A stretch of 64,000 nucleotides of DNA from an uncultured Ruminococcus sp. Lineage in GTDB: Bacteria > Bacillota > Clostridia > Oscillospirales > Ruminococcaceae. The position numbers and the translations under genes were made by a program. The DNA lies in assembly GCA_944388405.1 (NCBI GenBank), contig CALXIQ010000024.1, forward strand, positions 1 through 64,000, written 5' to 3'. Every line of letters starts with the position of its first letter. The first letter of the stretch is position 1. Positions 17,693-19,781 of the stretch are shown one piece after another. Below the pieces are notes generated by a model, which saw only the letters and a list, made by a program, of their open reading frames with translations, had not been told where the DNA came from and searched no databases.

Positions 17693-18463
17693 ATGCAGTA
17701 CAATAAGGTTGAAATAAGCGGAGTAAATACCTCCGAGCTTACCGTTTTAAAAGAATCCGAAAAGCTGGAGCTTTTAAAGAAAGTCAGCAAAGGTGACAAA
17801 GCCGCAAGAGAAGAGCTTATAAAGGGCAATTTAAGACTTGTTCTCAGCGTTTTGCAAAGGTTTGTCAACAGGGGAGAATCTGCCGACGATCTGTTTCAGG
17901 TGGGGGTAGTTGGACTTATAAAGGCGATAGATAATTTTGATATCAATCTGGACGTAAGGTTCAGCACCTATGCCGTGCCTATGATTTTAGGGGAACTGAG
18001 AAGATTTATGAGGGATTATCAGCCTCTGAGAGTAAGCAGGTCTCTCAGGGATATGGCGTATAAAGCGATGCAGGCAAAGGAACGGCTTATAAACAAAAAT
18101 CAGAAAGAGCCCACCATTGACGAAATCGCCAAGGAAATAGGTGCAAAGAGAAGCGAGGTGGTTACGGCGCTCGAATCTGTAAGCGAACCTATAAGCCTCT
18201 ATGAGCCGGTATATTCCGACTCCGGAGATACGCTTTTTGTGCTTGACCAGGTAGGCGATAATAACGACGCTTCACAATGGCTTGAGGAGCTTTCCTTAAA
18301 AGAAGCTATCAATTCTCTTCAGCCGAGGGAAAAAAATATTCTTTTTCTGAGGTTCTTTCAGGGCAAAACTCAGGTGGAAGTGGCAAAAAGCATTGGTATT
18401 TCTCAGGCCCAGGTTTCACGACTGGAAAAAGGAGCATTAAACAGAATAAAATCTCAGTTGTAA
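17693..18463 (+). CDS. sigG: forespore sigma factor G
   Basis: The 256-residue sigma-70 family protein has the N-terminal NKVEISGVNTSEL signature of SigG, region 2 (ADDLFQVGVVGLIKAIDNFD, 20 residues), region 3, and region 4 with TQVEVAKSIGISQAQVSRLEK at the end. SigG directs late gene expression in the engulfed forespore. The neighbours (Spo0A-like, ylmC) fit a sporulation cluster. A sigma-F-like promoter precedes it. Confidence 0.95.
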   Translation: MQYNKVEISGVNTSELTVLKESEKLELLKKVSKGDKAAREELIKGNLRLVLSVLQRFVNRGESADDLFQVGVVGLIKAIDNFDINLDVRFSTYAVPMILGELRRFMRDYQPLRVSRSLRDMAYKAMQAKERLINKNQKEPTIDEIAKEIGAKRSEVVTALESVSEPISLYEPVYSDSGDTLFVLDQVGDNNDASQWLEELSLKEAINSLQPREKNILFLRFFQGKTQVEVAKSIGISQAQVSRLEKGALNRIKSQL

Positions 18464-18634
18464 AGCGACCTATTTCGACATATGTAAATAATAATTAAAA
18501 TATTTGTAGTTAAATTCTATATGTGTATCATATATAAAATGAAATAATTGCGTGCTCTTGCATTTGCGTATAAAGTTTGTTATACTATGATTACTAAATG
18601 TTTAACAATCTGCATTAAGGAGGGGCACTGTGTA

Positions 18635-19438
18635 ATGAATAATAAAATCAGGCTTCTTATTGCAGTTGATGATGAAACTCTACGCAGCCGATGTATTTCG
18701 GCATTTTCATTGCCGAATATTAATCTTATCAAATGCGGCGCAGACAACGTTCTGATAGAAGTGACGGTAATGAAATATAAGCCTCACGCCGTTATTATCA
18801 GTAGCGACAATCTCGAAAAACGCATAGCGCGGTCGTTGGTAAAGGACCTTAGTGCAATGAATCAGTCGCCCATAATCATAAATTTATACACATATGAAAA
18901 TTACGGGCTTATTGAAGACCTTGAGAATCTTGGCGTAAGCCGAAGCTATTCAGCGCCTTTTGATTTGGAACAAATTGCAGCTGATGTCTGCAATCTTTGC
19001 AGTCTGATACCGGTTGACGTCAAAGAGGGCTTCGGAGAAATAAGACGCAGGATTTATGATGTTATGTGTATTTTCAATTTCAACAACTCTATGCAGGGCT
19101 ACAACTATATCAGAGAAGCGATTTTTATTGTGGTTACACAAATGAACGGAAAGTTCAATTTCTCTAAGGACATATATCCGAAAATCGCCGAAAAGTATGA
19201 AATATCCGCCGCATCGGTAGAACGTGCGATAAGAGTTTCAATAAGCAATTCATGGAAACGCACCAACGAAAATATAAGGAGGATGTTTTTCAATCGAAAC
19301 AGTCTGAAAAACTATAATAAACCCACCAACAGCGAATTCATTCTTACAATTTCCGATTACATAAAAAGCGAGTTTTCCGATTTTCTTGATGAAGTAAAGA
19401 AGGAAAAAGAATTATTGACTTCGGATAACAGCCGATAA
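18635..19438 (+). CDS. Spo0A-like regulator with degenerate receiver domain
   Basis: The 267-residue protein (ATG 18635 after AAGGAGG) has a receiver-like domain (1-120) and a C-terminal Spo0A DNA-binding domain (about 135-245: QGYNYIREAIFIV, KDIYPKIAEKYEISAASVER, AIRVSISNSW). The receiver keeps the acidic pair Asp12-Asp13, but the strand that should end in the phosphorylated Asp reads AVIIS with Ser56 in that place and an Asp two residues later. The invariant Lys of KPFD is Ala107 (APFD). It probably cannot be switched by normal phosphotransfer. It sits directly after sigG. A true Spo0A would have to be elsewhere; this looks like a divergent paralogue. Confidence 0.8.
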   Translation: MNNKIRLLIAVDDETLRSRCISAFSLPNINLIKCGADNVLIEVTVMKYKPHAVIISSDNLEKRIARSLVKDLSAMNQSPIIINLYTYENYGLIEDLENLGVSRSYSAPFDLEQIAADVCNLCSLIPVDVKEGFGEIRRRIYDVMCIFNFNNSMQGYNYIREAIFIVVTQMNGKFNFSKDIYPKIAEKYEISAASVERAIRVSISNSWKRTNENIRRMFFNRNSLKNYNKPTNSEFILTISDYIKSEFSDFLDEVKKEKELLTSDNSR

Positions 19439-19490
19439 GGTTATCAGACAAGCCGCATTCTGCATATTTTTTATGCAGGGGGTGGCTTTT

Positions 19491-19781
19491 ATGATTTGCA
19501 GCTTTTCAAGTCTGAGAAACAAAGAGGTGGTTAATCTTAAAACCGGTTTGAAGATAGGATACGTTGACGATATTGAAATCGACACATTGAGCGGAAGCGT
19601 GGTTTCGCTTGTGGTTTACGGAAAGATGAGAGCCTTCGGAATTATGGGAAGGGATGAGGATATAATCATTAAATGCAAGGACATCGAGCTTATCGGCGAG
19701 GATACCATTCTGGTGAGATTCGATAATGATGCAGTGTGCACAAAATCGAGAGTTTTAAGTGTTGAAAATTTGTTGAAATAG
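19491..19781 (+). CDS. YlmC/YmxH family sporulation protein (PRC-barrel)
   Basis: The 96-residue protein has the PRC-barrel pattern of YlmC/YmxH: SLRNKEVVNLKTGLKIGYVD, then IELIGEDTILVRF. The family is typical of spore formers, and its gene often sits near sigG, as here. The ATG at 19491 after GGGGGTGG is preferred over 19473. Biochemical function is not established in the family. Confidence 0.85.
   Translation: MICSFSSLRNKEVVNLKTGLKIGYVDDIEIDTLSGSVVSLVVYGKMRAFGIMGRDEDIIIKCKDIELIGEDTILVRFDNDAVCTKSRVLSVENLLK

Follow-up and report, generated by a model that had tools for sequence, protein, structure and literature searches.

A Spo0A paralogue with a degenerate receiver in a Ruminococcus species whose two-domain Spo0A-type proteins lack the phosphoacceptor aspartate

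According to reviews, all endospore formers begin sporulation via Spo0A phosphorylated at a conserved aspartate (PMC11210211), and Spo0A contacts the 0A box, the core of which is TGTCGAA (PMC3485338). Receiver-derived domains that lack the catalytic residues and are followed by a DNA-binding domain have been described in WhiI, BldM, GlnR and ChxR (PMC12632262); WhiI, a pseudo-receiver regulator, works together with a partner, BldM, during the development of Streptomyces (PMC12632262, PMC4125116). A truncated Spo0A borne by phages (PMC10294663) is likewise an additional Spo0A_C protein that is not open to phosphorylation. In the literature that we searched, no description of a pseudo-receiver of the Spo0A type was found. 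Here we analyze a protein, referred to as paralogue A, encoded in a 64,000-nucleotide stretch of DNA from an uncultured Ruminococcus sp. (assembly GCA_944388405.1, contig CALXIQ010000024.1), the whole of which is called the window below. Paralogue A has the same domain order as Spo0A, the same Spo0A_C fold and, in part, the same recognition helix, but it lacks the phosphoacceptor, the invariant Lys and the T/S residue, scores below the equivalog cut-off, is not encoded beside spoIVB and evolves fast. It resembles WhiI, BldM, GlnR and ChxR in the state of its receiver-derived domain and differs from them by its output domain, which is Spo0A_C. In contrast to the phage protein, which has no receiver at all, it keeps a receiver-like region under selection (residues 1–121) and occupies a fixed chromosomal locus; a search of viral contigs for the paralogue A protein found none. 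We give even chances to the proposal that this old Spo0A paralogue is an atypical regulator, expressed from its own σA promoter, whose abundance modulates early Spo0A-controlled transcription.

Paralogue A (positions 18635–19438, forward strand) is 267 residues long and starts with an ATG codon preceded by a good ribosome-binding site, the Shine–Dalgarno-like sequence AAGGAGGGG (18617–18625, forward strand). The original prediction assigned its C-terminal domain to the Spo0A type, which is borne out by Pfam: PF08769 (Spo0A_C) covers residues 140–243 (19052–19363, forward strand) over the full length of the domain with an E-value of 1.3e-25, and the modeled C domain matches the structure of the Spo0A–DNA complex (1lq1). 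The receiver-like half, delineated with Pfam and an AlphaFold2 model as residues 1–121 (18635–18997, forward strand), gives no match to the PF00072 (Response_reg) receiver family in Pfam, and the structural matches of its model to receivers, 1qmp among them, are weak. With TIGR02875, the NCBIfam Spo0A equivalog, paralogue A reaches 82.1 bits, below the cut-off of 200. Paralogue A belongs to the Spo0A_C superfamily without being a Spo0A orthologue; functionally, it would be of the atypical-response-regulator kind. Note that its last 20 residues or so form a helical extension beyond the C-terminus of Spo0A, a feature common to the close orthologues.

In the window, the gene lies, as the original prediction had it, between sigG (17693–18463, forward strand), from which 171 bp separate it, and ylmC (19473–19781, forward strand), which encodes a PRC-barrel protein and is followed by rpsB and tsf. 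The downstream side is constant: in the genomes compared, many of which are incomplete metagenome assemblies with mechanically called ORFs, the A orthologues of the genus are found directly upstream of ylmC–rpsB–tsf, often too diverged to be detected by BLAST. The upstream side is not: a co-oriented sigG precedes the gene in the window, G009 and G005, and G014 and G002 have another neighbor there. The assembly, 2.15 Mb in size and 99.9% complete, contains four Spo0A_C matches, namely canonical spo0A, paralogue A, a second dead-receiver paralogue (paralogue B) and a 75-residue fragment near a phage-repressor-like gene (L004, 1489–1716). The best match is canonical spo0A, which adjoins spoIVB (L001 on contig 16, 1063–1845). 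The window gene is thus indeed a paralogue and not the only Spo0A of the genome, and the spoIVB–spo0A gene order is that of the contig 16 gene, not that of paralogue A. Paralogue B (L003 on contig 4, 1459–2235, reverse strand) likewise occupies a fixed locus across the genus, beside a gene for a FAD-dependent protein. In C-domain trees, A, B and canonical Spo0A are separate and carry long branches, so that the depth of the duplications is uncertain; the A group is compatible with a single clade (AU test, p 0.27). Both A and B are inherited vertically within the genus. In one genome, G015, A-type paralogues are duplicated on two contigs (L036 and L037), away from ylmC, and one of them has a truncated tandem copy; in another genus of the family (G017), a Spo0A_C paralogue (L064) directly follows rpsB–tsf.

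The state of the receiver was read from an alignment to the Spo0A of the same genome, which is gap-free at the acceptor and Lys columns. Ser56 (codon 18800–18802, forward strand) occupies the phosphoacceptor position and Ala107 (codon 18953–18955, forward strand) that of the invariant Lys (APFD for KPFD), both as first read; only one residue of the acidic pair is left (Val/Asp), and Leu/Tyr stands in place of T/S. In the AlphaFold2 model, the β/α elements start at residue 41, residues 1–48 have a pLDDT below 50, and strands β3, β4 and β5 are present with their helices; β3 spans residues 52–57, with Ser56 at its end, in the place of the phospho-Asp, albeit with low confidence for the receiver. 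Alignment and model thus both designate Ser56 rather than Asp58, which had been considered as a possible phosphorylation site. As a displaced acceptor, Asp58 was rejected: it lies past the end of β3, and it is not a conserved substitute since it is replaced by Asn in the closest orthologue, which is 69% identical (Ruminococcus sp. Marseille-P6503). Judged from its residues, with the acceptor, the Lys, the T/S residue and one acidic residue gone, the receiver of paralogue A is predicted to be unable to accept a phosphoryl group. It looks like a once normal receiver that decayed lineage by lineage: the acceptor column still holds Asp in the A orthologue of G002, and Asp, T/S and Lys are all still there in that of G004. 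In some species, the A receiver is too divergent for any receiver match, whereas the receiver of Spo0A itself barely changes.

The recognition helix of paralogue A, as located by the alignment and the model, comprises residues 192–209 (19208–19261, forward strand). Five residues of the Spo0A helix, Glu213, Arg214 and Arg217 together with Arg211 and His218, are those that we take to contact the 0A box. The first three are kept in paralogue A (Glu196, Arg197 and Arg200), while Ser194 and Val201 replace the equivalents of Arg211 and His218. The Glu/Arg/Arg set is intact in the close A orthologues and broken in those of G001, G006 and G007, so that 0A-box binding is apparently not a conserved function of A in these genomes; in one B subgroup elsewhere in the genus, Glu-Arg is changed to Asp-His. 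These broken or altered residues suggest that the DNA targets of the A and B proteins have probably drifted. The idea that paralogue A acts on Spo0A boxes is therefore supported only in part: three recognition residues make it plausible, two altered neighbors and the loss of contacts in some orthologues speak against it.

Between the window species and G009, A and B have dN/dS values of 0.14 and 0.15, respectively, as compared with 0.025 for Spo0A, 0.034 for SigG and 0.007 for RpsB; by this measure, A and B evolve 5–6 times faster than Spo0A, yet under purifying selection. Paralogue A is thus selected but fast. Its receiver half and its C domain diverge at similar rates, both under purifying selection, as would be expected if the pseudo-receiver paired with Spo0A and redirected or inhibited it, the paralogue needing no DNA contacts of its own. 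This main alternative to our proposal has a precedent in WhiI and BldM (PMC4125116), and it would also account for the persistence of the gene at its locus in orthologues that have lost DNA-contact residues. The contrasting fates of the two receivers, one diverged beyond any match in some species and its would-be partner hardly changing, nevertheless lead us to regard it as unlikely.

Upstream of paralogue A lies a σA-type promoter consisting of TTGCAT, a 17-nt spacer and an extended −10 element, TG-n-TATACT (18558–18586, forward strand). The promoter of the aligned orthologue reads TTGAAA-N17-TATACT, and the window and most A orthologues combine a TGnTATAAT-like extended −10 with a −35 that resembles TTGaaa, spaced at 16–18 bp. 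When compared with dinucleotide shuffles, the promoter has a combined p of 2e-8 across the A orthologues, the sequences of which are related to one another; the window copy alone is non-significant (p 0.30). By its elements, the A promoter is predicted to be of the vegetative, σA-like type. Such a promoter, kept in place in the orthologues, runs counter to the post-commitment stage at which the gene had been proposed to act. A forespore regulator made with or after σG and binding Spo0A boxes late would be in keeping with the sigG gene that precedes paralogue A in three genomes; given the gene's own promoter, the 171-bp gap and the different upstream neighbor in two species, we hold this scenario to be highly improbable. 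For the phosphorylation-independent sporulation-stage regulator initially envisaged, the loss of the phosphorylation quintet is borne out and the gene is under purifying selection; the late stage is left unsupported. Very improbable too is a decaying duplicate with little function left and retained by chance, as the very fast divergence and the loss of receiver and DNA contacts in several lineages might suggest, because dN/dS is 0.14, the reading frame is intact in every A orthologue read, and one locus and its promoter have been kept across the genus.

An exact 0A box, TGTCGAA, is located between sigG and paralogue A, 161 bp before the start codon (18474–18480, reverse strand). Only two A orthologues have it too: that of G009, the closest, where the distance is unchanged, and that of G004, where it differs. 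Altogether, exact boxes occur in 6 of the 19 A and B upstream regions, two of these being orthologous, versus about 0.4 expected, given 0.021 boxes per 250 bp across the loci of the genus, which is suggestive of a tie of A and B to the Spo0A regulon. Genome-wide, we found no recognizable sporulation promoters among the 14 exact TTTGTCGAA sites, 10 of which lie inside ORFs. The reversed control pattern occurs 129 times in the same genome; the scarcity of TTTGTCGAA could reflect avoidance of TCGA or selection against stray 0A boxes.

In the reading that we prefer, paralogue A would be a Spo0A paralogue turned atypical response regulator, the receiver of which takes no phosphoryl group. It would be expressed from its own vegetative σA promoter, with Spo0A possibly tuning this expression through the nearby 0A box, and it would act either by its Spo0A-type DNA-binding domain or by dimer contacts with Spo0A, the amount of paralogue A setting its effect on early Spo0A-controlled transcription. 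We infer that its DNA binding is independent of phosphorylation and that its sites overlap those of Spo0A. As regards the direction of the effect, we lean towards a competitor of, or a brake on, Spo0A.

None of the three two-domain Spo0A-type proteins of the genome has the acceptor Asp. In canonical Spo0A, the acceptor is Glu (PDVVIIEAVMPN), and the acidic pair, the T/S residue and the Lys are intact. Glu, known to mimic the phosphorylated residue in part, is what most often replaces it in atypical regulators (PMC12632262). Among the primary Spo0As of the genus, 5 of 16 have Glu and 11 Asp; in the family, 26 of 95 are devoid of Asp (21 Glu, 3 Ser, 1 Asn and 1 His), and, by a tree of poor resolution, the acceptor column would have changed no fewer than 19 times. 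Beyond the family, where only the best-scoring loci were sampled so that the fractions are rough, the acceptor Asp is missing in 10 of 27 cases in other families of the order, in 2 of 28 in other orders of the class (both near relatives of each other) and in 1 of 28 readable cases in other classes of the phylum. Within this sample of the phylum, non-Asp acceptors are far commoner in the family and the order than outside them. A literature search of incomplete coverage gave no report of a non-Asp acceptor in Spo0A.

Three possible explanations of these substitutions were considered. Loss of sporulation is not supported, as SpoIVA is kept in 20 of the family's 21 non-Asp genomes from other genera. 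SpoIIE-like proteins, scoring below the curated cut-off, are present in 4 of the 5 Glu-type members of the genus; Spo0E, found in 1 of 118 genomes, is uninformative as a marker. A sequencing error is unlikely to lie behind the Glu, which is common to five species, including the isolate-named record Marseille-P6503. Nor are the non-Asp proteins likely to be misread paralogues: a detected spoIVB adjoins the gene in all five Glu-type members of the genus and in 9 of the 20 others checked in the family. We tentatively suggest, while considering it somewhat less probable than its contrary, that this lineage, and the order repeatedly, dropped Spo0A Asp phosphorylation as a switch; a primary Spo0A with a phosphomimic-like Glu would then coexist with unphosphorylatable paralogues, and control would be exerted by Spo0A abundance and by the dead-receiver paralogues.

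The species retains core sporulation genes despite its Asp-less Spo0A-type proteins. Control of sporulation in this lineage may therefore fall outside the textbook phosphorelay. If active, the Asp-less Spo0As would reveal how gut spore-formers can rewire the most familiar of all bacterial developmental switches, and automatic annotation that takes every Spo0A as a sign of a phosphorelay would mislead in such organisms.
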